Assembly (NCBI RefSeq): GCF_019649055.1 | Contig: NW_026570227.1 | Span: 806,001-870,000 of the forward strand | Reading direction: 5' to 3' | DNA: 64,000 nt | DNA from: Paramacrobiotus metropolitanus | Lineage: Eukaryota > Tardigrada > Eutardigrada > Parachela > Macrobiotidae | Shown: one piece after another, positions 104 to 31,270 of the stretch | How the letters are laid out: each line of letters starts with the position of its first letter | Position numbering within the stretch: position 1 is the stretch's first letter | The notes under the pieces: generated by a model | Databases searched by the model: none | What the model saw: the letters and a program-made list of their open reading frames with translations, nothing else | Told to the model about the DNA's origin: nothing | Translations under genes and position numbers: made by a program

Positions 104-2341
104 ATGACTACTACAGCACTGGCGAAGGATGACGAGTTGATTGCAATTAAGAATCAGTTGAGATCAGCCGCTAGAGAGTATCAGGAACTCGAAGGAGACG
201 TGACTCAGTTGACAGAGCACATTAAAAAGATGGAACAAGAAAACGAAAAGGTCATGCAGCAGGAGACTTTTAACCTGCACGAGCATTCTCGAAAGGTCAA
301 CTTGGAAAATTCCGATTTAAAGAGAGAGAAGGAAGAACTTCAGTTGGGAACTAAGCGATTGGAAGACGAGAACAAAGCGCTCAATATGTCGAACAAGCAC
401 AAGGATGAACAACTCCTACAATACGGAGTTAAAACAGTAACAGTGGAATCACCGCCGCCCAATTACAGTAAGGCACAGGAAACGGGCACGGGTAAAAGCT
501 TCCACTTTGAGATGCCGCTACGAACTGGCACCGGTAAAGGAAGTGTTAAAAATGAAAGAGATGGTGAAAAGGACAAAAACGACAAAGAGCCACCTTCGGA
601 AAGTTACCCGCATATGAGCCGAGGTGACCCTTCACAATTTCCCCCGCATATGGAAACGAACATCTTCATAGATGAAAGGCAAAGAGACAGACCGTCTAGC
701 CGACAAGAGCGCCCACGGAAGTCCCGTTACGGAAAAGCGAAACGAAATCAAAACGATAATGAAAGTAGCGAAGAAGAGGATGATCTGAAAGCAGAAAGGA
801 CAGCAGAGCAATTGACAAAAGCGCTCAATTCGATGGCTCGGAAAACACCCCTCATGACCTTTGACGGCAGTCGTGACACAGTGAGTGGTTGGACACGACT
901 GGTGAAAGAAACTCAAAGGACTTACCAGCTCACGGACGACCAAATCATGATCGAGATAGCCAGTGCAGTGAAAGGCCCTGCAAAAACTTGGTTTGAAGGA
1001 GAAAAGGACATCGCAGCAGAAGACGGGATTGAATACTCAATAACAGAGTGGATGGACAAATTCAAAGACGAATACGGTGATCGAGATGAAGAAGTCTTAG
1101 GCTTACGTGATGCCTATGCAAGGAAATTCGAACTCGGAAAAGAATCACTTGACCAGTATTACCAGGCGATGATGCGATTCAAAGCAAAACGGATTATCAC
1201 GGAAAAACAAGCAGTGGGTTTCCTAATTGAAGGATGCAGAGTGGACAATGAACTCTACAAGGCATTGCGCATACAGAAATGCAAGACGCCCACAGACGTG
1301 AAGGACTTCTTCCGACATTGGGCGACGGGAGAGGAAAAATACAAGGCGCCAAAAGGTCAACGTAACCAGGATTATGTGACAATCCGGTCTGGACAAGTTG
1401 AAAACGTGCCGCAACAGAGGATGACAGCGGCACCAGTCCAACAGCCAGTGGAATACCGTGTGGAAACCCCGGTCAGAGAGGTCACGGAAAAGGTGACCTT
1501 TATCGACAGTCAGACGGGGCAGCCGATAACTTATGCGATGGTAGCGGCGATAGAAGCGGCGGCTCAAGTGAGACCGGCACCCCAGAATGTAACCCCACCG
1601 GCACCACAGAATATGGCCCCTATGAATGTCGTGTTACCACAACAAGGAGGGGGTAACGGAAACTTCGGCGGAAATGGATACGGAAATGGAAACTGGAACG
1701 GAGGTCAAGGAAACTTTCAGAATCAAGGTCAAGGTCAAGGCAACTTCCAGCCAAATAGAGGAAACCAGAACTACCAGCAGAACCAAGGGTCACGAACGGA
1801 ATTTAAGTTTCAGATGATTGACGGATGGGTGGCGAACAATGTGCAGATGTGCCAGTACTGTATGTATGGCAACCATCAGACACAGGGGTGCAAATTCGCC
1901 AATACACCACCGGAACAGAATCCGAACCTGTTCGCCTTCAGGGAATGTCAACGACTGCGCGCCACAGGCGGCTGGCGCCAAGCAGTGGCGAATGGATATG
2001 ACCTGATTGCACAATGGTACCAGGCTAAGGCGAACTTCCAAAATCAACAAGGAAATGGAAACGGCAACTATGGAAATGGAAATGGCGGTGGCCAGAATGG
2101 CGGCTACGGCCGTGGTGGCTTCGGCCGCGGCGGCTTTAGAGGAAGGAACAGAGGCTATGGCCGCGGAAATTACAGAGGTGGTGGAAACGAAAGCGGAAAA
2201 TACCAACAGGGTGGTGGCCAATACAACAACGGCAATGGACAAAATCCCAACCCGGCAAATGATGTCGGAAAACAACAAGGAAATGTGCAGGGCGCGCAAC
2301 AAGGTGGAGCGCCGGTTCAGGGAAACGGGCAAGATCAGTAG
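104..2341 (+). CDS. gag: E1 Gag: coiled coil, capsid, CCHC knuckle, RGG tail
   Basis: Structural protein of the retrotransposon particle. The reading frame is open from position 26, after a TAG at 23-25, and its coiled-coil character continues to that point, so the ATG at 104 may not be the native start. Residues 1-100 form a Glu/Lys/Gln-rich coiled coil and about 100-240 are charged and disordered. About 244-408 match the retrotransposon Gag capsid domain (conserved Trp in WTRLVKE and ITEWMDKF). A zinc knuckle CX2CX4HX4C (CQYCMYGNHQTQGC) lies at about 583-596. The C-terminal part is Gly/Asn/Gln-rich with RGG repeats, typical of RNA binding. The TAG stop (2339-2341) lies inside a perfect hairpin. 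Confidence 0.9.
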   Translation: MTTTALAKDDELIAIKNQLRSAAREYQELEGDVTQLTEHIKKMEQENEKVMQQETFNLHEHSRKVNLENSDLKREKEELQLGTKRLEDENKALNMSNKHKDEQLLQYGVKTVTVESPPPNYSKAQETGTGKSFHFEMPLRTGTGKGSVKNERDGEKDKNDKEPPSESYPHMSRGDPSQFPPHMETNIFIDERQRDRPSSRQERPRKSRYGKAKRNQNDNESSEEEDDLKAERTAEQLTKALNSMARKTPLMTFDGSRDTVSGWTRLVKETQRTYQLTDDQIMIEIASAVKGPAKTWFEGEKDIAAEDGIEYSITEWMDKFKDEYGDRDEEVLGLRDAYARKFELGKESLDQYYQAMMRFKAKRIITEKQAVGFLIEGCRVDNELYKALRIQKCKTPTDVKDFFRHWATGEEKYKAPKGQRNQDYVTIRSGQVENVPQQRMTAAPVQQPVEYRVETPVREVTEKVTFIDSQTGQPITYAMVAAIEAAAQVRPAPQNVTPPAPQNMAPMNVVLPQQGGGNGNFGGNGYGNGNWNGGQGNFQNQGQGQGNFQPNRGNQNYQQNQGSRTEFKFQMIDGWVANNVQMCQYCMYGNHQTQGCKFANTPPEQNPNLFAFRECQRLRATGGWRQAVANGYDLIAQWYQAKANFQNQQGNGNGNYGNGNGGGQNGGYGRGGFGRGGFRGRNRGYGRGNYRGGGNESGKYQQGGGQYNNGNGQNPNPANDVGKQQGNVQGAQQGGAPVQGNGQDQ

Positions 2342-2362
2342 GCACCGGTGAGCCTACTGATC
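2333..2362 (+). promoter_or_regulatory. Perfect hairpin over the E1 gag stop codon
   Basis: An 11-bp perfect stem (GATCAGTAGGC at 2333-2343 with GCCTACTGATC at 2352-2362) closes an 8-nt loop. The gag TAG stop sits in the 5' arm. The -1 frame is open across this point into the next coding block. A structure at this place could act in frameshifting, readthrough or reinitiation between gag and pol. E2 has an unrelated hairpin at the same place (25691-25711). Confidence 0.7.
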
Positions 2363-2421
2363 GACCCGACCCTAAACCACCGGATAAAAGGGAAAGGTCA
2401 CCACTGCAGAATGGTACTGCA

Positions 2422-4008
2422 GTGAATGTGACCACTGCAACGGCTATAGGGATGCCGTCAGCGAAAAAGCAAAGTGGACCGGCTATATGGATGCCGCAAC
2501 CACAAAAAACGGCTAGATGGATGCCGCCACAGCAAAGAGAAACGGCTATATGGATGCCGTCATCGCAAAAAGAAAATGGAACGGTTATAAGGATACCGTC
2601 ACAGAATCAAAGGTCACCGCAGAATGGCACTGCGAGTGGAAACGTTCAAGTGGACAAAAGGTCACCGCAGAATGGTACTGCGAGTGGAAACGCGCAACGG
2701 GACCAAAGGTCACCGCAGAATGGTACTGCGAGTGGAAATTGTCGTGACGGTAGCGCGACACTGCAAAAAGTGCAGCAAAACGAAAGGTCACCGTACTGCA
2801 GCGAAGAAGTGTTAGCGCAACGACGCGCACAACGGAACGCAAAGATTAAACAGGCGCTGCTGAATCAAAAGAAACCGCAGAACGACACTGCGCAAGAAGA
2901 AAACGAGCAGCATGCGAAATTCCGAAAATTTTTGGCAGAAAACGACAAAGCGAACGAACCAAGTTGCGATTGTTACGGAGAGATAAAGCCAAAGTTCTGG
3001 AATTGTTCAGAGGACGAAGAAGAGAAGTTGATAAGGCAAAAATGGATGGAGCAGAATATCACTAACAGTAAAGATGAAAGGTCACCTTCTGTTGGAAAAG
3101 TCCAAGTGAAAGGTCAAGGAGTAAGTGTGAATGTTAAAGGTCACGGTGAAAGCGCCGTGTTAAAAGGTCAAGAAACAGACTTGACACTGCGAACAGCGCA
3201 GCAAAAGAATAGGGAACCGGCACAACAAAACTCCGACGACTCACTTGTGGATGCTGTGACATTGCAACGGAAGAAAATCTGGCGAAAAGTGGCCTACAGA
3301 CCGAATGGCAATCACGGGATGTGGGTACCCGTAACACCGAAAGCGAAGCAGAAAGCGAGAATGTCACAAGAGGATTACTGGGATATGCAACAGTTGAGAA
3401 CGCAATGTGAAAGAAAGCGATTAGGAGAGTTGGTTACCGGGAAACCAGCGCAAAACAACCCAGTCCCGGTATTCAATCCAGAGGAATATAAGAAGACATT
3501 CGCCGACTGGAATTACTCACGCAATGCTCCGCCACAGGATAAACCGCCGAATTATGGAGAAAAAGTCCCCATACAAAAGTTGACGGGCGGCGGATTTGTC
3601 ATGAAGCGCAACGAAAGGTCACAGGACTTAGCGCAAAACAAACAAAAAGGACGATCAAACGAGATGGCGCAAACGCAACAGAGTAACGCAGTCGAAAGGT
3701 CACGGGACTTATCGCAAGCACTACAGAAGGACGCTAACGACAAGTCACCAGCCCGAACAGACGGAATGTCTTCACAAATTGATCAGACGAAAACGAACAA
3801 TGAAGTGTCCGCGAAGGTGATCGAATGGATGACCGAAAAAGGATATGATATGATTACATATGAAAGGTCACCAGATGAGATGAAAGATAGTGAAGAAGAC
3901 GAATTGAAGCGAGCGGACCAAATAACAAGTGAAGTCATTGAGAAGCTGAGAGACAAACGAAATGAAAACCGTAAAGAGGACCTGATTCATCACGATAACG
4001 ATAAATGA
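2422..4008 (+). CDS. E1 gag-pro connector, low-complexity repeat protein
   Basis: An open frame of about 528 codons, in the -1 frame relative to gag and open upstream across the gag stop, so it is probably translated by frameshift rather than from its own start. I recognise no enzyme domain. It begins with WMP-type repeats and a 48-bp tandem repeat encoding RSPQNGTASGN, then becomes highly charged and disordered. ERSP, KGH and KGQ tripeptides recur because AAAGGTCA octamers are embedded in the DNA. It lies between Gag and protease, where gypsy elements normally have little sequence. It may be a spacer peptide of the polyprotein. Confidence 0.6.
   Translation: MNVTTATAIGMPSAKKQSGPAIWMPQPQKTARWMPPQQRETAIWMPSSQKENGTVIRIPSQNQRSPQNGTASGNVQVDKRSPQNGTASGNAQRDQRSPQNGTASGNCRDGSATLQKVQQNERSPYCSEEVLAQRRAQRNAKIKQALLNQKKPQNDTAQEENEQHAKFRKFLAENDKANEPSCDCYGEIKPKFWNCSEDEEEKLIRQKWMEQNITNSKDERSPSVGKVQVKGQGVSVNVKGHGESAVLKGQETDLTLRTAQQKNREPAQQNSDDSLVDAVTLQRKKIWRKVAYRPNGNHGMWVPVTPKAKQKARMSQEDYWDMQQLRTQCERKRLGELVTGKPAQNNPVPVFNPEEYKKTFADWNYSRNAPPQDKPPNYGEKVPIQKLTGGGFVMKRNERSQDLAQNKQKGRSNEMAQTQQSNAVERSRDLSQALQKDANDKSPARTDGMSSQIDQTKTNNEVSAKVIEWMTEKGYDMITYERSPDEMKDSEEDELKRADQITSEVIEKLRDKRNENRKEDLIHHDNDK
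2609..2752 (+). repeat. 48-bp tandem repeat, three units
   Basis: Three head-to-tail 48-bp units begin at 2609, 2657 and 2705, each starting with AAAGGTCACCGCAGAATGG and encoding RSPQNGTASGN. A diverged relative starts at 2393. Each unit carries one AAAGGTCA octamer. Confidence 0.9.
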
Positions 4009-4168
4009 AGTGACTAAAGGTCACGCGGATAGCACAAAAGCAAATGAGCAAGTGCAGGAAGCTGAAAAGGTCATCAGTGGTAAAATGGCTACAGAGGAGC
4101 AAACAAATAAAGAAAAGCCGCGAAAATATTACGATGTTTGAACTGACGTTCCACACAGGATTGATAAG

Positions 4169-6154
4169 TTGAGCGAAATACCGAAAGGTCATAGGACTCC
4201 AGTAAAAGGACAAGTGCTTCCCGATACGGATCCGGGACCAGTATCGCTCATCCCTGTGAAATGTAAGATTCACACATTGAAGATTCAAAACGGAAAATTG
4301 CCTAAAAGAATTGAAGCTTACACACACGAGGTGAAAGTGGGAGACATAAAGGTCAACGCAATGTTGGACACCGGCGCTGAGACGTCGCTGATCAGCAAAC
4401 CGTTCTGCGAGAAGAATGGACTTCATATGCTCCCACTACCACCAGACAGGCTGGTGAGAATAAATGGAATTAGTGGAGCGTCAGCATTCATGGTGGCGCA
4501 CTACTGTGTAGCACCAGTGACCTTAAGGAAGAAGACTAGCGAGCATTCATTTTACGTCCGACCGAAGTGTGACGACGTACAGGTGCTACTGGGATTCGAC
4601 TTCTTAGAGAAGAAGTTCGTATTAATGGATAATGAAGGCGAAGAAGAGAAAGAAGATGACCCGAAACCGATCGCCAAAGTTCAAGTCGGAAAGGTCACCG
4701 AATTCGTAAAACAGACGGGAAATGCTCAAATGGTTAATAAAACGCTAATCCTAGTACCAGAGGCACCGGGAAACGAAAAGAAAAAGATGACGCAAAAAGA
4801 ATTGTCACCATTTGAGCAGTTGCAAATGATTCAACAGGAGATTGAAAACACACTAGACCGGACAATGCTGACACAAAAGGGAAGAGAAAAGGTCATCCCA
4901 GTACCAGAGGCACCGGGAATGACGAGAGTGCAGCAGAACGAGCTTAGCCAACGGACAATCCCGGTACCAGAGGCACCGGAGAAGAAAAGTGAAAGTGGAA
5001 AGGTCAAAAAAGTCAACGAAAGGAAAAAGGAACCGCTTGCGCCAGACATGGATGAGGCGATCATATTTCTCCCGGACGGGAGAAGTATGATCGCTGATGA
5101 CTGTAAGCAAGGGGCCACAGAAAAAGATTGTGTTGAAAAAGTTATCCCAGTACCAGAGGCACAGGGAAAGAAAGATGAAAGGTCACCGGCGATAAGAGTA
5201 CCAGAGCGTACTCCGAATTTCTTCGAACCTCGATCTGCTACCCAAAATGAAAGGCTACCAGATGAAGCTAAAGAAAAAGCAACAGAACGTGAACCTCGAA
5301 AGGAACCCTTTTTTGAACCACACTCCGCTATCAATGACGAAAGGTCACCACCACTCGAAGAGATAGCCGCCACACAGAAAGAAGCGGCGGTCTCAGCGAA
5401 ACAATCGCTCGTGCCAGGCATGGAGTGGGCAAAGCCTATCCCAGTACCAGAGGCACTGGGAATAAAGACGGCTAAAGTGTGGAAGGATAAAAAGAGTGAA
5501 AGGTTACGGGTATTGAAACGAATAGCCGAAGAGGAACAGATGTTTACAAGTGAAATTCGTAACAAGGCGCTCGAACAGTTGAAAGGTCACCGAACACAAA
5601 AAGAACCAGAGGTCATCGAAATATCCTCTGAGGACAAAAGCGTGACTCCAATCGAATGTGAGGAAGATACCACAGCACAGGAAAAGGTTAAACCGCAAGC
5701 GAGTCAACGGATATTAACTTTAGACGAACGAGCCATGAGTTGTCACCACGGCTACTTTGAGGACCCGTGCAGAATACAACCACAACGGGAATGTGCAGAA
5801 TGTTGCGAGAATGCCTCCCAAGATGACCTTTCGCAATGGCCGAAATGTAATGCCGCAATAGCAGACCTTAAAGGTCATGCCCAAAAGGAAGTAAAAAGTA
5901 TCATGCGGACAAACGAAATGTGGAAACCACACATTGAGCGGTATCACTGTAACAGATACCGGACTTGGTTGTCATGCGTGAAGAGCTTCATTATCGGGAG
6001 AGGAGGATGGCTAAATCATTGGTTACAACGTGTCGAGAAAGGAATTCAAGATCCTCTCGATCCGGTAGCAACAGAAAGGAGATTTGAACGAGAGATAGAA
6101 GAGATGACCGAAGAAGGAGAAATGTGGGACGAAGCGAGAGTTGACCTTTTCTGA
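4169..6154 (+). CDS. pro: E1 aspartic protease with long repeat-rich C-terminal extension
   Basis: A retropepsin-type active site, LDTGAETSLIS, lies near residue 67 and is followed by the usual hydrophobic flap region up to VLLGFDFLE. The frame is open upstream to a TGA at 4139-4141 and beyond that back to about 4001, so the true N-terminus is probably supplied by the polyprotein. After the protease come about 450 disordered residues with at least five copies of PVPEAPG-like and two of FFEP(R/H)SA motifs, then a Cys-rich stretch near 5740-5810. The frame ends at TGA 6152-6154 and resumes in the same frame straight after it. Confidence 0.85.
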   Translation: MSEIPKGHRTPVKGQVLPDTDPGPVSLIPVKCKIHTLKIQNGKLPKRIEAYTHEVKVGDIKVNAMLDTGAETSLISKPFCEKNGLHMLPLPPDRLVRINGISGASAFMVAHYCVAPVTLRKKTSEHSFYVRPKCDDVQVLLGFDFLEKKFVLMDNEGEEEKEDDPKPIAKVQVGKVTEFVKQTGNAQMVNKTLILVPEAPGNEKKKMTQKELSPFEQLQMIQQEIENTLDRTMLTQKGREKVIPVPEAPGMTRVQQNELSQRTIPVPEAPEKKSESGKVKKVNERKKEPLAPDMDEAIIFLPDGRSMIADDCKQGATEKDCVEKVIPVPEAQGKKDERSPAIRVPERTPNFFEPRSATQNERLPDEAKEKATEREPRKEPFFEPHSAINDERSPPLEEIAATQKEAAVSAKQSLVPGMEWAKPIPVPEALGIKTAKVWKDKKSERLRVLKRIAEEEQMFTSEIRNKALEQLKGHRTQKEPEVIEISSEDKSVTPIECEEDTTAQEKVKPQASQRILTLDERAMSCHHGYFEDPCRIQPQRECAECCENASQDDLSQWPKCNAAIADLKGHAQKEVKSIMRTNEMWKPHIERYHCNRYRTWLSCVKSFIIGRGGWLNHWLQRVEKGIQDPLDPVATERRFEREIEEMTEEGEMWDEARVDLF

Positions 6155-6163
6155 GACTTTCGC

Positions 6164-8188
6164 GTGAACCACATGTATAAAGGTGAAGGGAGGACGATTA
6201 TTTTCCCGGCAGGACTTGGTACGCCTGTCTACGAATCACTCGAAGTATATTACAACGCGTTAAAAGAGGGGAACGAAGAAGTATTCCAAAAATACTGGAA
6301 TAAATTTGAAGAAGAGATCCCCAGATTTGACGTAAAAGAGATGCGAGAATTACAAGTAACCCGGAAAAGAAGGTTACCAGGATTAATGCAAAAGAAAAAG
6401 GTGAACTTTGCACTAGATCCAGATGGAGTGGACTACCCAGAACGAGGTGGCGACACATGGTGCATGTACGAAACGATTCCAGGTGATGACTGGGTCACCG
6501 AAGAACTAATGGCAAACTGCATCTTTGTTGGTCCCAAACGACCTAAAGGTTACGAAACAGTCCAACAGAATGAAGCTGACAAGGGGACTGTAGAAGAAGC
6601 GGACAAAGAGGAACCAGTTGAAGAGATAGTCGAAGGTGGATCGAACGAAACGGAAGAAAGTTCAAAGTCGGCTTTCGACATCGCACGGATGTTAACAGAT
6701 AGAGGTGAAATGTGGAAGAAGTTCAAAGAGGAAGTCGAAAGGATATCGAATGAACAACAAAACCCAGTAACTGAGGCAAAAAACGGGGAAAGGTCACTCG
6801 ATAACGGTGAGGAATGTCCGCCGGTCGAGTTGACCGAAAAGCCATTAACGAACCTCGAGAGAATAGAAAAGTCAAAATCGGACGAAGAAAGGTCAAACTC
6901 CGATCAATCAGAAAGGTCACCAACGAGAATTCGAGTAGCAAGGAGTCACCCAAGAGTCGCCGCACGAAATGGGCGAAAGGCAAAAGAAGGGGACAAACCT
7001 CTGCTCAAAAATTCGAAAGCGGAAAAACTTAGCGATTCGCGGGAAAACGAAAGTGACCTTTCATCAGAAGACGAAGGAGTTGGTGAGCGCCCACTCGAAA
7101 AGGTTGACAAAGGTCAAGCTACTGTACAGGAATATGAGAGCAGTAATTCGGATTCAGAGTGGACGAGTTCAAGTGATAACTCAACGACTTCGGAGGATTC
7201 AGGTGTAAGTGACCTTTCAGAACAAGAGGACTTACTGGATTTGGATGAAGATGACGAAGTGGATGAAGAAAAAGAAAAGGAGATTACAGTCAGAAGACTG
7301 AAAGTGGAAAAAGCTAGAATGTCAAAAGATGTGATTAAAGTTTACAGTGATCAAAGAATTAAATTGAAACCGTCAAACTGCACAAGGGTAAAGGTCAGGA
7401 TGGGAAAATATGCACCGGCCCAAAACAAGTTGATGTTTACACCGGTCCCACAAGTGGAAACTGAAGTGCAACCGTTGGCAGGAGTGACGGACCACAGAGG
7501 AAAATACTTCGAAATCGTCATTGCGAACCACAGTAGCAAATACCGCATTGTGAAGATAAATCAGCTACTCGGCTATGTTGAGCCGTATGAACATATGGAG
7601 AATGTAAAGGTCAACGCAGGGACAGTAAAAAACGTACTCGAAGACCCTGAGGTGGACGATACAACGAAAGCTGAACTGAAAAAGATAATCGAAAACTTGA
7701 AATTGGGACCTGACCTTACCCAAGAGCAGAAAAACGACGTGTATAACGCGTTCTGGGAATTTTGGAAGGTCCTACCGACATCAAAGAAACCGTATGGAGA
7801 TGTCAAAGGGGTCACTCACGTAATAGATACGGGAGATGCAAAGCCAGTTAAATGTAACCCGGCCAGAACGAGTTGGACAGGTCGTGAGTTCATAACGAAG
7901 CATATCGAGGAGATGCTAGCACAAGATGTAATTGAACCGTCAGATGCCGAATGGAGTTTTCCAGTCGTGCTGGCAGTAAAGAAAAACGGTGATGGAACAA
8001 TGGGAACCAGATTTTGTGTCAATTACATCATGCTTAATAAGTTAACGAAAAAAATTATCCGCTACCGAACCCAGATGAATTGCTCGACGCGTGCGCAGGC
8101 AATAAATATTACGGAAAAATGGACCTACAAAGTGGATTCTGGCAGATTCCAATGGATCCGGCGTCAATCAATAAGACGACCTTTGTAA
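6164..8188 (+). CDS. pol: E1 pol connector and N-terminal part of reverse transcriptase
   Basis: In frame with the protease ORF across a single TGA. The given start is GTG, so this is a polyprotein segment and not a free gene. Residues 1-400 are acidic and disordered with ERSP motifs. From about residue 440 the sequence matches the pre-RT region of E2 (LLGYVEPYE), and then the RT fingers (WSFPVVLAVKKNGDG, TRFCVNYIMLNKL). RT homology leaves this frame at a run of seven A (8048-8054) and continues in the frame of the next ORF. The last 45 codons are therefore out of frame. The break may be a mutation, a sequencing error or recoding. Confidence 0.85.
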   Translation: MNHMYKGEGRTIIFPAGLGTPVYESLEVYYNALKEGNEEVFQKYWNKFEEEIPRFDVKEMRELQVTRKRRLPGLMQKKKVNFALDPDGVDYPERGGDTWCMYETIPGDDWVTEELMANCIFVGPKRPKGYETVQQNEADKGTVEEADKEEPVEEIVEGGSNETEESSKSAFDIARMLTDRGEMWKKFKEEVERISNEQQNPVTEAKNGERSLDNGEECPPVELTEKPLTNLERIEKSKSDEERSNSDQSERSPTRIRVARSHPRVAARNGRKAKEGDKPLLKNSKAEKLSDSRENESDLSSEDEGVGERPLEKVDKGQATVQEYESSNSDSEWTSSSDNSTTSEDSGVSDLSEQEDLLDLDEDDEVDEEKEKEITVRRLKVEKARMSKDVIKVYSDQRIKLKPSNCTRVKVRMGKYAPAQNKLMFTPVPQVETEVQPLAGVTDHRGKYFEIVIANHSSKYRIVKINQLLGYVEPYEHMENVKVNAGTVKNVLEDPEVDDTTKAELKKIIENLKLGPDLTQEQKNDVYNAFWEFWKVLPTSKKPYGDVKGVTHVIDTGDAKPVKCNPARTSWTGREFITKHIEEMLAQDVIEPSDAEWSFPVVLAVKKNGDGTMGTRFCVNYIMLNKLTKKIIRYRTQMNCSTRAQAINITEKWTYKVDSGRFQWIRRQSIRRPL

Positions 8189-9489
8189 CACAAGATGGAA
8201 TGTACCGGTTTAAAAGAATGCCATTTGGAGTTTGCAACGGACCAGCAACATTCCAATTATGCATGGACAAAGTACTTTCGAAAGCGAAAAGAAAAGGATG
8301 CGTTTTCGGGTACACTGATGACGTTATCTTCGCTGGAAAAACTTGGGAAATTTTCATGCAGAATTTGAGAAATGTCTTAATGAGCTTGGTTGAAGCGGGA
8401 TTCACCATCAAACCAACTAAGTGTGAATTCGGAATGAGACAAATGGGATTCCTGGGCCATATACTCAGCGAAGATGGAATTCGAATGGATCCGGAAAAGG
8501 TCACCACGGTCTCAGAATTCAAACGGCCTCAAACAGAAAGGCAATTAAGGTCATTCCTTGGACTGGCGAATTATTATCGCAAGTTCATAATGGGATACGC
8601 ACAGAAGACTTGCCACTTGTATGAGTTGCTGAGACAAGATAAACACGTGAAAAAGGACTGGACAGCAGTACATGAGGAAGAGTTCAATAGCTTGAAAAAG
8701 TTGTTGTGTGAAGGTCCAGTACTGGCAAAGTTTGACCCAGCAAAACCGACTGTCATTGAATGCGACGCGAGCAAGGAAGGAATTGGAGCGGTACTGTCAC
8801 AAGATGGACATCCAATTGCATATGCAAGCCGCGTCCTGCATGGAGCCGAGAAAAATTACGGCGTAACGGAATGGGAATGTCTGGCAGTAGTGTTCGCTGT
8901 CAGGAAATTCAAGCCGTATATTGATTATGCGGAATTTACCGTAAGGACGGATCACCAGGCGCTGACTAACTTGCTGAGGTCAGAGACAAATAAAGTTGGG
9001 ATGAATCTGCGATTGACAAGATGGGCAATGGCATTACAAGGCCACCAGTTTAAAATTGAATACAAACCGGGAAAGTATTGTGACAACGCAGATGCGTTAT
9101 CAAGAGCACCAATCGAAGGTCCGACGTGTCATGAGGAGGAATTTGACGAGATTCCGAACTTCGACGACTACAAGAAGGAATTTGACACGAAGGAACCAGC
9201 AATTGAAATTGGACAGCTGTTTCTGCAGATGATGGAACAGAGAGAAAAACGATTAAAGGTCACTTCGGCTACGGCGAACGAGTCGGCTGAAAACGAAGCA
9301 AAAGTGAACCGAGTGAAAAGTTGGTTGCCCACCGTTAGCGACTTAAAGGTCACCGGACTTGACGCGGAATCCCAATTGCCGAATGAAAAGGTCACGGGAC
9401 TTGATGAAACAGCGGAGAATAGAGATGACCTTTGGGAAACGGACAAAGTTGCACAAGCGTTGAACGAGTGTCCGATCAGACTGCTTTGA
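8080..9489 (+). CDS. pol: E1 reverse transcriptase (palm/thumb) and RNase H
   Basis: Continues RT from the previous frame. RT landmarks are KMDLQSGFWQIPMD, MPFGVCNGPATFQ and the catalytic box YTDD (near residue 78), where most gypsy RTs have Y-V/L/I-DD. The thumb follows with FLGLANYYRKFI. RNase H of the Ty3 type covers about residues 225-345 (TVIECDASKEGIGAVL, TEWECLAVVFAVRKF, VRTDHQAL, DNADALSRAP). A linker of about 110 residues rich in KVT, absent from E2, follows and ends at TGA 9487-9489. The same frame is open again directly after this TGA into integrase. Confidence 0.9.
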   Translation: MLDACAGNKYYGKMDLQSGFWQIPMDPASINKTTFVTQDGMYRFKRMPFGVCNGPATFQLCMDKVLSKAKRKGCVFGYTDDVIFAGKTWEIFMQNLRNVLMSLVEAGFTIKPTKCEFGMRQMGFLGHILSEDGIRMDPEKVTTVSEFKRPQTERQLRSFLGLANYYRKFIMGYAQKTCHLYELLRQDKHVKKDWTAVHEEEFNSLKKLLCEGPVLAKFDPAKPTVIECDASKEGIGAVLSQDGHPIAYASRVLHGAEKNYGVTEWECLAVVFAVRKFKPYIDYAEFTVRTDHQALTNLLRSETNKVGMNLRLTRWAMALQGHQFKIEYKPGKYCDNADALSRAPIEGPTCHEEEFDEIPNFDDYKKEFDTKEPAIEIGQLFLQMMEQREKRLKVTSATANESAENEAKVNRVKSWLPTVSDLKVTGLDAESQLPNEKVTGLDETAENRDDLWETDKVAQALNECPIRLL

Positions 9490-9624
9490 TTCCCAAAACA
9501 GACGAAAAAGAGGTACAAACCGTTACCACGCTGCAAGGTCATCAAAGATTGGAATGAACTCAGTACAGCGACAGTCCGCATTGTCAACCTGCAGGGTGAC
9601 GAGGAGGATGTAGACGACTCCAAC

Positions 9625-11542: not shown

Positions 11543-11625
11543 CCCACATATGATTAAGGGGATTTATGGCAATAAGAATAGGAGTAGGGAAGGTGTAAAA
11601 GAAAGGTCATCACCGCGCAAAAGTT

Positions 11626-14600: not shown

Positions 14601-16592
14601 AAACGGGAGACGTCCCGTGAATCGGAAGCATCGGAAGCGAGTCTACCGAGCACTTTGACAGTTAGCACAAGGTCATATAGGGATGACCCGAAGACGGCAC
14701 GATCAAGAACTACTGAGCCAAGAAGCTTAGCGGACGCTTTGGATAAAGGGACTAAGGCAAAGAGCGAACCCGCTAAGACCAAAGGAAAGGGCAAGACAGC
14801 TATGAAAGTCGATGCATTGGCAATGGTCAATTACACGGAACCGGACGGAGAGAGCGAGTTGGACTTCACCTCGGATGAAGAATTTGATGGTCCAGACAAC
14901 GATGATTTGACCACGGTCAATGAAATCATCAACGCATATAACGGAGCGGAGAAAAATTTCACACGAATAAGGACAGCATCGGTGACATCGAAATTCAAAG
15001 CAGGCCTGAAGACTTATTTGAAGAAACAGCGTCGTAGCTTCACTAAACGAAAGTTCGACGTTGTATTGGAATTTGCACGGAGCGCAGGGAAACTTATCCA
15101 GAAGCACCCGAAATTTTCGTACAAGGCCAAGCTGTTCAGAGCAGCCAGTTCGGATAAAGCGCTGACAACTCCGAATGAAGCGGTCCCAATGCGAGTAGAA
15201 AGGGCAATCGCAGGAATGACAAGCCCGTTAGGGTCAACGAGTCATCGGATCAGCCAATATATTAACGCAGTCTGGAACGACGGGAATGGAATGATAAAGG
15301 AGATTGATACGGCAACTGAACGTGTATTGCCCAGGCTGATTAAACAGAACGTCCTCTCCACAACGAATGCAAACAAAGGACACCCAATTCGATACACAAG
15401 AGTTGGTCTGATACCACCGGAAAGACAGATCCACTGTCATATGTCTGACAGTCAAGATATGGAAAAGGTCACCGTCCCATTGAGCGGAGATCCGTCAACT
15501 CCGATATTGAATCAGATTGCGCAGAAAACGGCCGAAGAAGAAGCGGCCAGGCTGAAATCACAAGCCCCGAAAGTGTCGAAGATAAGAGGACGGATGGAAG
15601 ACGATTCGGAGGAAAGTGGTGACGATATCACGACATCGGCGCTCTCCGAATCTGTGACAGGAAAGGACGACCAGTCAAAAGGTCAAGAGACATCTGGAAC
15701 TACCGCAGAAGTTCAGCCGAAAGGTCACGAGACTTCGGACAAACAGGAGAAAGAAAAGGTCATGCTCCCGATGGATAAGGCAGCGGCAGAAGCTGAAGCG
15801 GATTTGGCGCGACAGGTGTTTCAGAAATCACTGTTCACGCCATTAAAGGAAGTCTTTGAGAAGGAAAGATCGAAGTCGGCTGGCGATCTGGAAGGTCAAG
15901 AGACTTTGCCGCAAGAGGAAAAGAAGACAGCAGAACCAAAATCGGCGGGGTCATCATTAGGATCATTGGCAAAGCTGAGGATCGACGAAACAGCGACAGC
16001 TGACCCAACGGACTCAGCATCCTCCCAGAAAAGTAGCGGTACACCAGTAAAGGAGGCTACAGACTACACGTTAGGGCCGGCATTGGACGTGAATAATCGT
16101 ACATGGAACGAAGTCCAGGCCGCGCTCCAGATCATTCGAGAAAAAGAAATGCTTGGTACAGATCTGAAAAGACAAGTTGCAATAAATTCGAACGGAAGGT
16201 CGTCACTTAACATGACTGAACGAGCCCTGAAACGAGCATATAAGGAAGGAAAGTTGGGATGTAAATACAACAAGGACAACAAAGTTGTCTACTACCTTCC
16301 GAAACAGGGTCAGGAACGAACGCCCAGACTGACAATGGAACTAGAGGCCTGGAAGATAGCCATCACAGACGTGGCTTTGGACGCCATCGGTGGTACCAAT
16401 AGAGCGTCATGGAATGACCTTTCGAACTTCATGGCCGTCCATTATGAATTGGGCGAGCTGAACATTGAAAGCGATAAAGAGTGGATTAAGAATGCCGTCG
16501 AAGCCTTGATCGCAGACGAAGTGCTTCATATTAATCCAGATGGCCGAGTTGACTTCAAGCCGTATAAACCACCGGCGAAGGAATCTGAGTGA
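11667..16592 (+). CDS. E1 ORF B: large accessory protein with tandem winged-helix domains
   Basis: A 1641-codon uninterrupted frame. The listed start is TTG. The E2 counterpart begins with ATG and the same MDR, so the original ATG may be lost; the next in-frame Met is near codon 29. Residues 1-220 are Pro/Gly/Tyr-rich. Residues about 498-757 hold two copies of a roughly 120-residue module (RKVT opening, DSYNPF/YAPWDV middle, AWIRIKV/AHFRLTRR end) that I do not recognise. About 805-1060 are acidic then Lys/Arg/Glu-rich. About 1168-1252, 1473-1547 and 1555-1634 look like winged-helix domains, the first resembling a linker-histone globular fold (VERAIAGMTSPLGSTSHRIS). Inferred nuclear or nucleic-acid-binding role. 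Not env: no signal peptide or membrane segment. Confidence 0.75.
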   Translation: MDRLERQNSDNSDSESIGNPLKTSTPIRMEGEYGYDTSYGEGSTSSVGTAQNEPGTVQGGYYGGQRYYVYHDPGQQTNYQDTVNWVHHGSPAGTQYSGQAMGAPYQPYPGSYTPPGSSQVIMGPARMLMPPPQQTPPNRFTGQGGFSGMLVAPVQLQRSYPILPPFPDTGGLSLSDIGTPRMRTPQQLGAHRPHRNSPHRGGRRPRGILPSLGPNLDQTGPDGLRLTPPGEPSIHEYAPKLPLDLRDDDPNLNLIVDKKDKLTETDLEAIRDFNRKCRDLYRIHVRVEDEHAWYGKLISLEAVIKPCHIPMKDKTKQVEAKRKEYAIQVASMWQYHPTIKGRRWPETVEKILRYLKVFPEIRQMPTTSVAGPSKPTAEKDAPVDEMTDENLLATKKKIDAELTERAERSRASSTAGSVRGRTSSVTEPSSGTTKSGKRVRSPTTSPKETDKKEQRTKKVTTTEAPPAKPQGPVPVGRKSAPPTPAGTEGQIRFPKCRSFTAKYTGTNHKERKVTARIVDKKTNKEIDSYNPFADKSVKDAIGEESKTVVNEALQFVSPEERHNPRVLIQMMKHVVSKVATEEDAWIRIKVGTNDDHLAYTYTVDGKLLTKERTRSKPTADPDPKKRSLDDYESILRYTDATSRKVTLRLFAGNGEVVETITAVIVDPITGDPIPYAPWDVSEESAQNANQAAIEQLWNLIPESDREDPVAQTSTLISMMRHRAEIDEAHFRLTRRMENGSYKTVFYDAKKNPLWEVVSQGQLKETAHLEIQPPAQEGGAGETEEAQGTSANVTETGGARRSSKEDESDEEEDDDDSAGETAEEDEETADKHKKPSKVVKPRKAPKLEEAMNRDKVKKGDFLKKRREEEDKKKRQEEEDKKKKSGDESDSTNTGKKKRERSKKREEPASHDVEILDESVGEAEERLPTPTTSKKFVIQSATSESSTPKAKDLAVKQAVPIVISASTPKERKDKQTREKAKRETSRESEASEASLPSTLTVSTRSYRDDPKTARSRTTEPRSLADALDKGTKAKSEPAKTKGKGKTAMKVDALAMVNYTEPDGESELDFTSDEEFDGPDNDDLTTVNEIINAYNGAEKNFTRIRTASVTSKFKAGLKTYLKKQRRSFTKRKFDVVLEFARSAGKLIQKHPKFSYKAKLFRAASSDKALTTPNEAVPMRVERAIAGMTSPLGSTSHRISQYINAVWNDGNGMIKEIDTATERVLPRLIKQNVLSTTNANKGHPIRYTRVGLIPPERQIHCHMSDSQDMEKVTVPLSGDPSTPILNQIAQKTAEEEAARLKSQAPKVSKIRGRMEDDSEESGDDITTSALSESVTGKDDQSKGQETSGTTAEVQPKGHETSDKQEKEKVMLPMDKAAAEAEADLARQVFQKSLFTPLKEVFEKERSKSAGDLEGQETLPQEEKKTAEPKSAGSSLGSLAKLRIDETATADPTDSASSQKSSGTPVKEATDYTLGPALDVNNRTWNEVQAALQIIREKEMLGTDLKRQVAINSNGRSSLNMTERALKRAYKEGKLGCKYNKDNKVVYYLPKQGQERTPRLTMELEAWKIAITDVALDAIGGTNRASWNDLSNFMAVHYELGELNIESDKEWIKNAVEALIADEVLHINPDGRVDFKPYKPPAKESE

Positions 16593-16944
16593 ACGGGACG
16601 AGTGTAATATGCAGCGAGTAATAAACCCTGCATATTACAGAACAAGCATAAAACAATACAAAACGAAAGAGAAAGTATTACGGCAATGGGAAAATGAAGA
16701 GTCTAACTGGAACAGTATTTAGACTAATAGAAAAGGTCACAGTAGTCAGAGAGTGCTGATAACGTGAGAAAGGTCACCACGTTACAGTGATAGAAAAGGC
16801 AGCAGGAGCTAGGCAAGTCTCAGCTCAGTAACGGAATAGGCGTAAAAATGATAGAAAGCCTTGATAACGGATAGGAATGGAAAGGATTAACGTGGAAAGG
16901 TTATTATGATGGATTGTTTTATAATTGCAGATTGAAGCGGAAAA
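16593..16944 (+). promoter_or_regulatory. E1 spacer between ORF B and ORF C with acceptor-like site
   Basis: Non-coding spacer of 352 bp. Two AAAGGTCA octamers occur at 16732 and 16769. A T-rich tract ending in TTTTATAATTGCAG (AG at 16929-16930) lies 14 nt before the ATG of ORF C at 16945, in the position expected of a 3' splice site. Confidence 0.5.
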
Positions 16945-17490
16945 ATGGCACAGAAATGTCAAGCCAATTCTAAACGTTCAGGAACAGCGGCAGAGATTGA
17001 TCGGTCTACGGGCTATAACCCAAAGTGTCCGGACTGTTTACGGAATAACAGAAAAGTCGATAAGAAATTCCCGTGCTACGCATGCATTCACAAGCTGGAG
17101 GACCCACATATTGTTTCACTCGTTGGGGTCTCGGAAGCCAAACGTGGGAACCTGGACGTCTTCCGCAACCTGATAAGCGCAAGGAATTACGGCAGCATCC
17201 CAGTGGTAGAGCGAATGTTACTTGAGGATCGTTACCGGGAAGCGATCCGGAACAACGAACCCGGTTGGGATGAGACCTTGGAGCCGTTGAAGTGTCCACA
17301 AACAGACGCGTATCGAAAGAAGTTCGAGGAAGATCAAGAGAAGATGCGAGTCCAGCAAATGGAAGATGAAATCCGAGCGAAGATTAATGCGGAAAATAAG
17401 AGAGCAAGCGAACAGGCTGCACGAGAGGCGCTGCCCAGAACGTCGAGTTCAGCTGTACCCACAGCCAGCCTTAACGAAGAAGAAGCGTAG
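16945..17490 (+). CDS. E1 ORF C, first part: four-Cys module
   Basis: A 181-codon frame beginning MAQKCQAN. It has a CxxC...CxxC pattern (CPDC near residue 28, CYAC near 43) suggesting one zinc site, then a helical region aligned by eye with E2 residues about 35-115 (NLDVFRN versus SLDAYRT, then a shared pattern of aromatic and Arg residues), then a Glu/Arg-rich coil. It ends with TAG 17488-17490, followed at once by a CTGAC-AC-GTCAG hairpin. The frame stays open past this TAG into the next ORF. In E2 the two parts are a single ORF, so this stop is either read through or a recent nonsense change. Confidence 0.7.
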   Translation: MAQKCQANSKRSGTAAEIDRSTGYNPKCPDCLRNNRKVDKKFPCYACIHKLEDPHIVSLVGVSEAKRGNLDVFRNLISARNYGSIPVVERMLLEDRYREAIRNNEPGWDETLEPLKCPQTDAYRKKFEEDQEKMRVQQMEDEIRAKINAENKRASEQAAREALPRTSSSAVPTASLNEEEA

Positions 17491-17502
17491 CTGACACGTC
17501 AG
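17488..17502 (+). promoter_or_regulatory. Single in-frame TAG followed by a hairpin in E1 ORF C
   Basis: The TAG is followed directly by CTGACACGTCAG (17491-17502), a 5-bp stem with a 2-nt loop. The frame is open on both sides and the E2 homologue has no stop here. Possible readthrough signal, or a plain nonsense mutation. Confidence 0.4.
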
Positions 17503-17523
17503 TCCCTCATCATTCAAATCGAA

Positions 17524-19680
17524 ATGTTAATGAAAGATCCAGCCGCTATGCCAGACGAGGTATTAAAAGCGCTGTTGCGGGAGAAAAAACGACTGCAAGA
17601 CGGATTCGCGCCGGCACCATACATAAGGAAGGAAGTCGAAAGACGTATGGACGAATTACGTAAATCTCGCCAAACTGAAAGTGGTGTGCTCCAGGCGCTC
17701 AGAAGTTTTAAACGGGACGAAGGCTTTATTCGACCTCGATCACCTCCGCATAGAGAAAGATCACGCGGACATTCACGTGAACATGAACGGACTTCTGAAC
17801 GACGGAGCGAAAGGTCACGCGAACACTCTCGTGAAAGGACACGTGACTACCGCAGCGAAAGGTCACGCGAACGCTCCCGCGACAGAGATTACCGTGGCGG
17901 AAGAGGATGGGTGCGCCATGGAAACGAAATAACAGAAATGAGTATTCAGAGGAAAATCGATACGGCAAAGATTTTGGCAGCGACGAGAGAACGAGAAGAA
18001 AAACGGCGTGCGGAGACATTCCGTACAGAACCTGAAAAGCAAGGGCATCAGGTGCCGATGGGAGTTGCATTCCGGAATCGCAAAGTCAGAATGTCAACAC
18101 CTGAAAGGTCATGGGATAAAAGACGCGAACATACGCGAAACCGAACGCCAGACCCACATGATAAGAGATGGCAAGAACGAACCAAGTATTATGCGGGTTT
18201 TGAATCTGGCGCGAGTAAAAGGTCATCGAGCGCGGAACGGGAAGATTCACCCCCGAAATACCAGCGAATGGAGTCCACAGTCCACGTAGTGGATCCAATT
18301 GTAAGCGCCGTTCAAGAAGATGACTCAATGGAAGGGGCCAGCTCGGTTGCAGAAGTGTCTCAAGACAACGTGACCCATCGGCGAAACGTAATTCTGGATA
18401 GTGACCCTCAACCATCCACATCGGCGAATAATGAACCGCCGCAGTCGGAGTCAGGAGAACGAAGTGGGCGAGAAGGTCATCGCGAACCGGATGAACGTCG
18501 TGCAACCGATCGACGAGCGATTTCTAGATTTGACAATCGCCGCCCCGATATTATCGATATGGAGTATAATATGAACGACACCGACGAACAAACAGCAGAA
18601 ATCTGTCGTTATATGGGCATCGAAGGTGATTCGGCGGAAGCGAACAAGATTCATACTATACTGAACCAGCTGCGCCAATTCTTACTCGACTCGGGATATG
18701 CCAGAGAGATTAGACAGGGTGTGGAAGAAGGACATTTCCATCGACTGTACATCCCTCGCGATTCTGCGCGAGATTGTTATCTCCCTATCCGACGGAATGG
18801 GCTACACAGTTTGGTGGAATTGAGTCTATTGGATGTGCCGCTGGATACGACTGACCCAGTTGGGATGACACAATTTTATTACACAGATTATCCCGAACGA
18901 CAAGAATATGTGGCTCAGTACGTTTTACGACATGTGAACCCAGCCTTCAAGTTGCTTGCAGCAAGAGCATCGATAGGACTACAGATGGATCCTAAGGACT
19001 ATGCCGCAAAAAGGATGGGGCAAAAGGTCTTTGCTGCGAGATTGGCACATTACAAGACACAGAATCAATTGGTGTCTAATACCATGAAGGACGATATTCC
19101 ACCGTTTTTCCGACCTCATGTGGCGAAACTGGGGGAGCCTATGGAACATATAGGAATTGCTCACACGGCCAGGAAGGCGCTAAAGAAATGCAAAACGCGA
19201 ATGGAAAAGGGCAACTTGACACAGCGCCATGCCTCCCAAGTTGAAGAGAGGATTAATAAGATCAAAGACACCATGGGAAGTGACTACGTTGAACCAGTGG
19301 ACGGAGTCGACACATATATCGACGAATTCCTAGTGAAGAAGAGTGACCGACGCCCAGAACGCGCTCCTAACCAGATAGGACGACGTGCCCTGCGGAACCA
19401 GCGCCTCCGAGATAATCTCGCTGATGTACAACGGCGGCTGGCGGATGACCCTAATAACCGAAGACTGCGGTTAGAAGAGAATGACGCACGCCATCAACTC
19501 GAGAGGGTTAAACGAAGTCGCCAAGGGAAAGGTCGTGGCCAGCGCGAAGTTGACCCGGCAAAGGTCATGGAAGTCGAACCCATGGAGCCAGTCGATCGAA
19601 TATCTGACCGTAATCAACCCGAAAGCGCTAAGAAACGCCCGCCAAGAGACGGCGAGGGCGATTCAAATGAAATGGAATAG
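17524..19680 (+). CDS. E1 ORF C, second part: RS-rich region and conserved helical domain
   Basis: 718 codons in the same frame as 16945-17490. Residues about 75-135 are a dense Arg/Ser/Glu repeat (RERSRGHSREHE, RSERSRERSRDRDYRGGRG) like the RS domains of SR splicing factors. Residues about 340-600 hold a mostly helical domain that aligns by eye with E2 ORF C residues about 375-650 (FLLDSGYAREI versus LLHTIGYDLRI; VQYVL/LLQFIL-type patches). The C-terminus is basic with RRALRNQRLRDN-type coils. I do not know this domain. Inferred RNA- or chromatin-associated accessory protein. Confidence 0.7.
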   Translation: MLMKDPAAMPDEVLKALLREKKRLQDGFAPAPYIRKEVERRMDELRKSRQTESGVLQALRSFKRDEGFIRPRSPPHRERSRGHSREHERTSERRSERSREHSRERTRDYRSERSRERSRDRDYRGGRGWVRHGNEITEMSIQRKIDTAKILAATREREEKRRAETFRTEPEKQGHQVPMGVAFRNRKVRMSTPERSWDKRREHTRNRTPDPHDKRWQERTKYYAGFESGASKRSSSAEREDSPPKYQRMESTVHVVDPIVSAVQEDDSMEGASSVAEVSQDNVTHRRNVILDSDPQPSTSANNEPPQSESGERSGREGHREPDERRATDRRAISRFDNRRPDIIDMEYNMNDTDEQTAEICRYMGIEGDSAEANKIHTILNQLRQFLLDSGYAREIRQGVEEGHFHRLYIPRDSARDCYLPIRRNGLHSLVELSLLDVPLDTTDPVGMTQFYYTDYPERQEYVAQYVLRHVNPAFKLLAARASIGLQMDPKDYAAKRMGQKVFAARLAHYKTQNQLVSNTMKDDIPPFFRPHVAKLGEPMEHIGIAHTARKALKKCKTRMEKGNLTQRHASQVEERINKIKDTMGSDYVEPVDGVDTYIDEFLVKKSDRRPERAPNQIGRRALRNQRLRDNLADVQRRLADDPNNRRLRLEENDARHQLERVKRSRQGKGRGQREVDPAKVMEVEPMEPVDRISDRNQPESAKKRPPRDGEGDSNEME

Positions 19681-19710
19681 TGCTGATCGTTAGGATCACA
19701 CTATTAAAAG

Positions 19711-19737
19711 GACGTCTACGGCACTTGTCGGTACGTC
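19711..19737 (+). ncRNA. Degenerate hairpin unit upstream of the E1 array
   Basis: A GACGT/ACGTC stem encloses CTACGGCACTTGTCGGT, a near match to the core of the units at 19872-20318. Possible ninth, diverged unit. Confidence 0.45.
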
Positions 19738-19871
19738 ACAAAGATAAAGAATGGTGTTGTATAAAGGGCGTGAAATGTGACATGCTTAACATTAATTGTA
19801 TTCGTGTATTGTTGTTTGCAGCGTTTATAGCACAGAATCAGAATGGTTAAAAAAAACCATGTGGAGTATTA

Positions 19872-20318
19872 TTGGGGTTGAAATTGATTCGGTCTATAAA
19901 GCCGGCCCCAAGGGAGTTGATACGGCAGTTAGCCGGCTCTCCTCTTTAAGCGATTCAGTGTTATAAATGCACAAGAGAAACTACGGTAATCAAGCCGGAT
20001 CTCTTGAAGACGAAGGTGGGCCACAAGCGGCGAAAAAGAGAAAGACAATAGGTGGAATATTGATGAGGTTAACTTAATGCGGCAACCAGCCGGCCTCATT
20101 AGAGTTACGGTAAACTATGCCGGCACTCTTTTTAAGCGATTCAGTGTTAAAATTAAACGAGAAAAACTACGGTAACCAAGCCGGATTTCTCGTAACAACG
20201 TAAGCCACAAGCGGCAAACAAGAGCAAAAGATTAAATGTGGAAATTTCATGGGGTAAACTCAATGCGGTAAATAGCCGGCCCCATCAGAGATGCTACGGT
20301 AAACTTGCCGGCACTCTG
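19872..20318 (+). ncRNA. Array of eight structured hairpins with a common CGG...GCCGG core (E1 3' non-coding)
   Basis: Units at 19872-19911, 19912-19942, 19972-20006, 20063-20099, 20101-20129, 20157-20193, 20249-20285 and 20286-20318. Each has an outer stem of 5-8 bp whose sequence differs between units but stays paired (TTGGGG/CCCCAA, CAAGAGA/TCTCTTG, ATGAGG/CCTCAT, AGAGT/ACTCT, ACGAGAAA/TTTCTCGT, ATGGGG/CCCCAT, CAGAG/CTCTG; the second unit is weaker, GGAG/CTCC). Inside is a conserved CGG, 7-10 nt, GCCGG. The units form a higher-order repeat of about 187 bp, three hairpins per repeat, with linkers AAGCGATTCAGTG and GCCACAAGCGGC each appearing twice. Co-variation argues for selected RNA structure, such as a packaging, export or protein-binding site. 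Not a CRISPR: no invariant repeat and no spacers. Confidence 0.8.
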
Positions 20319-21085
20319 GCCGCTCGAGGCATGTTGAAGTTGGATGTGAGACGGAAAGGCCAAATCAAGTCTTTACCAGGGAGGCAAGCAAAGAAGTGCT
20401 TGAAAGCTGCAGAAAATTGGCTCAGTTCCTCCATGGCCTTTAATGGAAGTCTGAACAGAAACTGGATGACCTTTGGGATCATCAATTGCCCAACAGAGTC
20501 ACCGTATCGGGATTCAAGTCGCATGACCTTTTGGGACCATTAACCCAAACGAGTCGCACATCTCAACGGATCATCTTAACAAAGGATGACCTTTACCAGG
20601 TAGGAAGCAAATCATGCTTGTCTTCATTGACGTCCCTCCATGACCTTTATGGATCTCATTTTGAAGTCGTACAATTGATACGCACCATATTCCAAAGATT
20701 GAAGCAGTATTCCTAAGTCGTACTTGATACGCACCTGATTCTCAAGCGGATTGTGATGAAAAGTCGCTTTATGGATGCGCAGGACTGCTCAAAAGAACGG
20801 AATGGGCCAATGTGCGGAAAACGGTGGATAGGACCTGTGACCCTTACGAGTCAGAAATGGAGGATCCTAGTCTACATTTGATTAATACTTTTGTTGATCT
20901 GTTCACTGTTGATCTGTTCCTAATGATTTGATAGTATTTTTATAATTGGATCTCTTTATTCACATTGTGTTAAATGGAATTGTGCCTTTATGGAATTGAT
21001 GTGATAAAATGGAATAAGAGAATTTGATGTTTTTGAGCACGCACAGACACCGGCGACCGTCGTTTTCATGGATTCGGGAGTGTGT
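20319..21085 (+). other. E1 3' non-coding region with reverse octamer cluster
   Basis: No convincing ORF. Four TGACCTTT octamers lie at 20467, 20524, 20587 and 20641, all in the reverse orientation to most copies in the coding region. The motif GATACGCACC also occurs twice (near 20678 and 20717). Becomes AT-rich after 20880. Confidence 0.6.
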
Positions 21086-31264: not shown

Positions 31265-31270
31265 ACAGCG

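Follow-up and report, generated by a model that had tools for sequence, protein, structure and literature searches.

The locus and the element E1

The stretch of DNA analysed here (64,000 nucleotides, 64 kb, hereafter the window) lies on contig C7 of the 169.8-Mb genome of the tardigrade Paramacrobiotus metropolitanus. Coordinates are those of the window unless they carry a C prefix, for contigs (C7, C1 and others), or an L prefix, for loci cut out for comparison (L001, L021 and others). We focused on E1, a Ty3-type long terminal repeat (LTR) element of 24.7 kb in total, and on the octamer AAAGGTCA, which E1 carries in about 90 exact copies. A preliminary description of this DNA had recognised the element but made it too small: E1 starts 3,244 bp upstream of the window, and these 3,244 bp carry 19 further AAAGGTCA. 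The features of E1, including its open reading frames (ORFs), are the following.

C7:802757-803103 (L021:4757-5103): 5' LTR of E1, a 347-bp match to the 3' LTR, 99.4% identical
1..21121, forward strand: in-window part of the E1 internal region; the 5' LTR and the first 2.9 kb of internal DNA lie upstream, C7:802757-806000
247..20648, either strand: in-window part of the 91-site array, 72 exact AAAGGTCA, 58 forward and 14 reverse
26..2341, forward strand: Gag-type ORF, named from its place and make-up; no Pfam match above cut-off
2393..3170, forward strand: dense stretch, 0.78 kb with 9 forward sites, of which three lie within a 48-bp tandem repeat (2609-2738)
4142..11115, forward strand: Pol region of several ORFs, with aspartic protease, reverse transcriptase (RT)/RNase H and integrase (Pfam)
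11658..16592, forward strand: accessory ORF of 1,644 aa; no Pfam match; absent in the short-type copies seen, whose sites stay
16936..19680, forward strand: accessory ORFs that, judged by eye, begin Cys-rich and contain an RS-rich part
20467..20648, reverse strand: four reverse sites, 54-63 bp apart, in the 3' noncoding region
21122..21468, forward strand: 3' LTR of E1, from the LTR-pair match; zero AAAGGTCA

As in other Ty3/gypsy elements, E1 displays an LTR pair with a short target duplication, and protease, RT-RNase H and integrase in this order. The duplication, CATG, was seen by eye in the flanks at both outer sides of the element, and a possible primer site after the 5' LTR, also found by eye, is presumably of the tRNA-Met type. 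Pfam matches to protease, RT/RNase H and integrase fell in the ORFs 4142-6154, 8041-9489 and 9490-11115; the interruptions of Pol in the window copy are not common to most other copies compared. The large accessory ORFs gave no Pfam match above cut-off, and the relatives that a protein search returned for integrase and two accessory ORFs are P. metropolitanus proteins. A PDB sequence search with the C-terminus of the 1,644-aa ORF returned none at an E-value of 1, and an Rfam scan of the window at gathering scores gave zero matches.

Number, strand and spacing of the sites

Exact search returned 78 AAAGGTCA in the window, against a mean of 2.69 and a maximum of 7 in dinucleotide shuffles (n=100). 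The 58 forward and 14 reverse octamers counted earlier by hand at 247-20648 were recovered without change, and the other 43 kb of the window, credited with about four, hold 6. Over the whole of E1 the count rises to 91 (65 forward, 26 reverse), with none inside the LTRs. From the base composition of 1-20700 we expect 0.79 copies on the forward and 0.09 on the reverse strand, corresponding to an enrichment of ~73-fold and ~155-fold, respectively; because enrichment is higher on the reverse strand, the 4:1 excess of forward sites is smaller than expected from the A-rich strand alone. The 24 one-mismatch variants on the forward strand occur 41 times in sum (each 0-6), when ~17 are expected from composition, and are thus somewhat raised yet remain far under the exact word (58 against 0.79). 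In a test of 8-mers, AAAGGTCA reached a log10 P of -108, compared to -6.9 for the top-ranking 8-mer of E2, the neighbouring LTR element, and -12.2 for that of a control stretch.

The gaps between E1 sites range from 24 to 1342 bp with a coefficient of variation of 1.1, and follow no dimer spacing rule. Phasing, which was calculated without a control, gave nothing clear at 10, 10.5, 11 or 147 bp; a period 3 signal was present, as coding DNA would give, together with a weak signal at 185-200 bp. Orientation varies along the element. The leader holds 11 sites within 0.5 kb, every one of them reversed, and the sites in coding DNA are mostly forward. Genome-wide, AAAGGTCA occurs 42,562 times and the same word read backwards 15,522 times; as a matter of arithmetic rather than of counting, the excess of ~27,000 would equal some 300 elements at 90 sites each.

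Codon usage, peptide repeats and duplication

The preliminary description held that the word lies in different frames and also between ORFs, and both parts stand. Sites within ORFs distribute over all three frames (10, 22 and 20 forward, 3 and 7 reverse). Outside the ORFs first counted we found 29 of the 91 sites; 8 of these are within upstream ORFs, which leaves 21, including 11 sites in the leader and 4 at the 3' end. We then ran a codon-preserving control in which synonymous codons were shuffled within each ORF (n=1,000). The shuffles contained on average 4.6 forward and 0.27 reverse AAAGGTCA, with maxima of 12 and 3, as compared to 50 and 10 in the original ORFs. Codon choice at the dipeptides concerned differs from that in E2: Arg-Ser is encoded AGGTCA in 25/52 cases in E1 and 1/15 in E2, and Lys-Val is encoded AAGGTC in 22/59 and 0/12, respectively, while there is little difference for Lys-Gly encoded AAAGGT (14/31 versus 4/11).

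These data bear on the explanation that the array results from repeated peptides, tandem duplication or biased codon use. Some sites do lie inside tandem repeats (2609-2738 and 17807-17882), and the peptides ERSP, KGH and KVT are recurrent. However, column counts around the 72 in-window sites reveal a base preference just adjoining the word and not further out, the codon shuffles never approach the observed numbers, third codon positions are 14 times less variable inside the word than elsewhere (see below), and the sites occupy every frame as well as DNA outside ORFs. As sole causes, the three processes were rejected on the column counts, the shuffles, the third positions and the codon choice at the dipeptides, and we consider such an origin hardly credible.

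Conservation across E1 copies

In order to compare the window copy with other copies of E1, a 1.1-kb RT query was used; 40 of 387 candidates were scored, corresponding to the window copy and 39 others with 88-93% identity. Site conservation was measured within 500-10400 and 6700-10800 of the window. A first set comprised 12 copies (the window copy and 11 others with cut loci), and motif columns were picked if at least 6 copies have the site. These columns differ at 4/1,535 bases, compared to 378/7,105 in the 20-bp flanks. For the second set, pieces of 9.0-9.9 kb were taken from 20 of the 39 other copies, nine of which are also in the first set, with a pairwise identity of 84-97% (mean 90%). 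The 43 sites of the window copy were exact in 746/833 comparisons (638/695 for forward and 108/138 for reverse sites, 27/860 wholly gapped pairs being excluded), while other 8-mers were exact in 84,813/192,044 (44%) in the same 20 copies. The third codon position differed in 33/2,121 cases (1.6%) inside the word and in 13,262/59,192 (22.4%) outside.

When sites were drawn from each copy in turn, 12,422/13,687 forward and 2,250/2,761 reverse comparisons were exact, and 378/815 for the backwards word. Each of the 21 pieces carries 36-47 sites. A position profile, based on the 37 of 60 site columns present in at least 17 of the 21 copies, displays a trough of 8 bp with 0.4-1.3% variation; the adjoining base forms a slight shoulder (3.4%), and beyond it variation is ~6%; the remaining 23 columns represent gains and losses. 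Leaders behave likewise: in 10 of the 39 other leaders, picked by hand, there are 10-13 sites each, and 13/878 bases differ in sites versus 664/5,104 elsewhere. Selection on nucleic acid, as proposed at the outset, is therefore strongly supported by the codon shuffles and by the other copies. Since reverse sites and noncoding leader sites are conserved too, selection appears to act on double-stranded DNA, and the word is expected to be recognised in DNA that is double-stranded, or on either strand of it, which would not fit a signal present in RNA only.

The preliminary description had also suggested an RNA packaging tag. A signal in the genomic transcript, read as AAAGGUCA and used for packaging, export or translation, would agree with the location of 65/91 sites on the sense strand and with the somewhat better conservation of forward sites. 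Yet the sense excess is smaller than A-rich composition alone predicts, reverse sites, which read TGACCTTT in RNA, are conserved in coding DNA (108/138), and the leader sites are conserved although all are reversed. With reverse sites maintained both in coding DNA and in the leader, the RNA tag is disfavoured, and we judge it improbable.

Molecular drive has been argued for bacterial uptake sequences and could be considered here: copies bearing the word would be favoured in template switching or gene conversion, and the word would spread without benefit to the element. Retention of the word while neighbouring bases drift is compatible with this, as is the finding that most of the 12 copies, except for five that group more closely, are about equally distant from one another, which is how a recombining pool would look. 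Conversion would, however, drag the flanks along, and the site flanks vary like the rest of the element (5.3% versus 5.5%), which makes drive a very improbable cause.

Other parts of E1 also attracted attention. Two blocks, 2332-2425 and 2665-2760, are nearly invariant; they lie round the gag stop and at repeats of the CTGCAGAATGGTACTGC type. The gag stop itself has an identical 15-base context in 21/21 copies, and the blocks near it are perhaps a readthrough or frameshift signal. Between 4888 and 5460 the peptide IPVPEA(P/L/Q)G is repeated, with GTACCAGAGGCAC as its DNA, and the 8-mer ACCAGAGG contained therein is present in six copies.

Short-type copies and the relative on C1

Seven loci (L001, L002 and L004-L008; L003 was dropped, having no match to the window) represent a short type of the element without most of 11,600-19,800, hence without most of the 1,644-aa ORF and of a 729-aa ORF. 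The longest open stretch is 130 aa in the three short-type loci translated. Between the flanking E1 matches these loci hold 15-25 sites, compared to 19-20 in the 8.2 kb of E1 (counted from lists). Cuts of 1.5 kb from the short type carry 19-25 sites, exact in 752/861 comparisons, and 2.5% of site bases differ versus 8.1% of others.

A further relative, at C1:202498-219706, is known from position lists and one 551-base piece; its RT is 76% identical to that of E1 in DNA and 81% in protein. Provided that this cluster is a single element, its 87 sites in 17.2 kb compare with 91 in the 24.7 kb of E1. Reversed sites are found near both cluster ends as in E1, while most sites are at other places. 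At the RT level, 35/40 scored places are 82-100% identical to the C1 relative, and among the matches listed (C1-C83) a dense array of sites spaced 18-24 bp lies 3.9-4.2 kb downstream in 8/21 such places. The number of sites may thus matter more than their place, and a constancy near 90 sites, seen in few elements, is suggestive.

Occurrence of the word outside E1

We looked for the array in relatives of E1. Sister clade A is ~51-53% identical to E1 in the 729-aa ORF, and clade B is ~55% identical to clade A. Both contain a relative of the ORFs at 16936..19680, without the motif density in the piece compared: the clade A sample has 0 sites in 901 bp and the clade B sample 1 in 884 bp, when the E1 equivalent has 4. 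Around a clade B match at C1:98370, 32 kb contain 6 sites when both strands are counted, and the backwards control predicts ~3. Because density is low in the sampled sister clades and in other families (see below), the array probably arose in the E1/E1b branch.

The word also occurs in 21-bp tandem arrays of AAAGGTCATCCACCTTTCTG and near variants. Among the matches listed, such arrays were read in the letters at C19:172594, C19:184670, C7:416445 and C1:566902, and those at C48:163733, C78:366794 and C78:382662 are deduced from steps of 21 bp or from equal length. Some places have a forward array to the left of a reverse one. No AAAGGTCATCCACCTTTCTG array was found in the loci cut out for comparison, and the arrays possibly belong to another transposon using the same word.

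The second LTR element of the window, E2, spans 22068-36729 and has terminal repeats identical over 300 bp. Its accessory ORF matches a linker-histone domain (PF00538) in two stretches. Candidates for a word specific to E2, GCCGTA (22 copies, both strands) and GCAAAGGC, were no higher than in the control stretch and were rejected, one E2 copy being considered; E2 thus displays no word of this kind. Elsewhere in the window, the palindrome GGTCGACC has 7 copies in 45000-59000 against 0.14 expected, and GGGTCGACCC has 5 copies within 37-64 kb. Tandem units of 73 bp in inverted orientation are located at 44005-44147, 54408-54578 and L021:3081-3229.

Candidate readers of the word and the proposed mechanism

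The preliminary description equated the word with the monomer site of NR4A/NGFI-B nuclear receptors, and this is literally correct: AAAGGTCA is, letter for letter, the NGFI-B response element (NBRE), which is bound by a single receptor (PMC4777543). As would be expected from an array of NBREs, E1 shows exact sites, a conserved block of 8 bp and no dimer spacing rule. Searching the genome with a vertebrate NR4A DNA-binding domain identified an exon pair on C45 that is 83% (query residues 3-31) and 76% (residues 24-72) identical to the query, with the A-box unmatched, while the other 37 hits have 31-64% identity. By this similarity the exon pair is a candidate NR4A-like DNA-binding domain; a published count gives 42 C4-type zinc-finger proteins in P. 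metropolitanus (PMC12941274). A host receptor as binder of AAAGGTCA is only a lead. Confinement of the array to the E1 lineage speaks against a host reader, and the 21-bp AAAGGTCATCCACCTTTCTG arrays at other places possibly speak for one.

The explanation that we favour, with somewhat more than even confidence, is that the AAAGGTCA copies are additive sites for a protein binding double-stranded DNA, with a host monomeric receptor as the leading candidate binder. The word would be a dispersed cis-acting recognition signal in double-stranded DNA, and the ~90 copies per element would work jointly, each contributing slightly. As a monomer, the bound protein would recognise the 8 bp in both orientations and without a set spacing, and elements losing sites would leave fewer offspring. 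The step served could be open, transcribable chromatin over the 24.7-kb provirus or the nuclear import of a long, receptor-bound cDNA. The enhancer or anti-silencing array suggested in the preliminary description is possible; the LTRs themselves have no copy of the word. Protein binding of the word and additive effects are what we infer from the pattern of sites; the view that the binder is a monomeric NR4A-type nuclear receptor of the host takes up rather less than half of our belief.

Several observations weigh against this explanation. Conservation is somewhat lower for reverse than for forward sites (2,250/2,761 versus 12,422/13,687 when pooled), and the window sites 4999 and 5824 are present in just 3/12 and 6/20 other copies. 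High conservation is not exclusive to the word, as ACCAGAGG is exact in 90% of comparisons and several 24-bp stretches of E1 are hardly variable. The LTRs of E1 carry no AAAGGTCA. Neighbouring E2 has no excess of the word, and eight other Ty3-type integrase loci (1.5 kb each, chosen among 150 scored) contain a single site in 12 kb; general use by a host factor looks odd because neither E2 nor these eight loci have an excess. Finally, the near-constant number rests on one fully counted E1 and on a relative known from positions and 551 bases.

Confinement to one lineage raises the alternative that an accessory or Gag-like protein of E1 itself binds AAAGGTCA in its own cDNA, in order to sort, condense, protect or import it, so that E1 enzymes serve E1 DNA alone; the match to the NR4A site would then be coincidental. 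The word indeed looks confined to the E1 lineage when E2, the eight Ty3-type loci and the clade A and B samples are considered, and the linker-histone match (PF00538) of the E2 accessory ORF indicates that DNA-binding accessory proteins occur in such elements. Conversely, no DNA-binding domain was recognised in the scanned E1 ORFs besides the zinc-binding domain of integrase, and an AlphaFold2 model of the C-terminus of the 1,644-aa ORF was unusable (mean predicted local distance difference test score, pLDDT, 36) and was set aside. Moreover, short-type copies keep their sites without these ORFs, and help in trans would then be needed. Overall we find a reader encoded by E1 rather unlikely.

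A wider proposal, which we put forward tentatively and hold to be possible rather than probable, is that the array is a counted passport of the E1 lineage: ~90 copies, selected for number and not for place, would let a protein tell E1 DNA apart, as a first eukaryotic counterpart of uptake sequences gained after the split from the sister clades.

Implications and comparison with known systems

Much of the coding sequence of E1, in all frames, is bent to accommodate ~90 exact occurrences of a single word and, judging from the conservation, copies that lost sites seemingly rarely spread. How a large retroelement marks its own DNA, stays open in chromatin or brings a 25-kb cDNA into the nucleus becomes a testable question, with the word and its number known and array-free relatives in the same genome. 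If the binder were NR4A, a stress-responsive receptor would tie a stress-surviving animal to its transposon load; if the reader were an ordinary transcription factor at ordinary work, the novelty would be smaller.

Transposable elements are known to carry a few binding sites in their promoters, or one insulator block, and to our knowledge no eukaryotic element has ~90 exact words through its genes under selection. No report of an array like that of E1 was found in the retrotransposon, tardigrade and receptor half-site literature among the papers listed, as covered by titles and abstract starts with subscription journals mostly outside. Likewise, no literature joining Paramacrobiotus with retrotransposon, or LTR retrotransposon with DNA uptake sequence, was found, and the text of the P. 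metropolitanus genome paper has no words beginning transpos- or retro- (PMC11191345).

Comparison with the NBRE itself reveals the same 8 bp exactly and a candidate NR4A-like domain in this genome. In enhancers, NBREs work alone or a few together, whereas the ~90 copies of E1 are spread over the coding part of a mobile element. The Su(Hw) sites of gypsy lie in the leader, confined to one block, and are degenerate. Gypsy resembles E1 in that a Ty3-type element carries sites for a host DNA-binding protein, and the 11 sites of the E1 leader recall the cluster of 12 Su(Hw) sites that forms the Drosophila insulator (PMC5825117). In contrast to gypsy, the sites of E1 are exact and extend over the leader, the genes and the 3' region, with 80/91 outside the leader block instead of being confined to it. 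Receptor sites in Alu elements are few per short element and do not form an array. As in E1, retroelements here spread receptor sites of the AGGTCA type (PMC1785376, PMC3252374); selection on the copies, as found in E1, is not mentioned in the titles and abstract starts of these Alu papers.

The DNA uptake sequences of Neisseria and Haemophilus are exact short words present in many copies, on both strands and in genes, and kept against mutation. E1 too carries an exact short word many times over, on both strands within genes; the word is conserved against drift and, in the samples studied, restricted to E1 and its kind, although the 21-bp arrays exist. The difference is that uptake sequences belong to bacterial genomes with uptake machinery, while E1 is a eukaryotic retroelement with no uptake known. 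Altogether, by analogy, the nearest known systems among retroelements are the gypsy insulator and the receptor sites of Alu, and the nearest in pattern are the bacterial uptake sequences.

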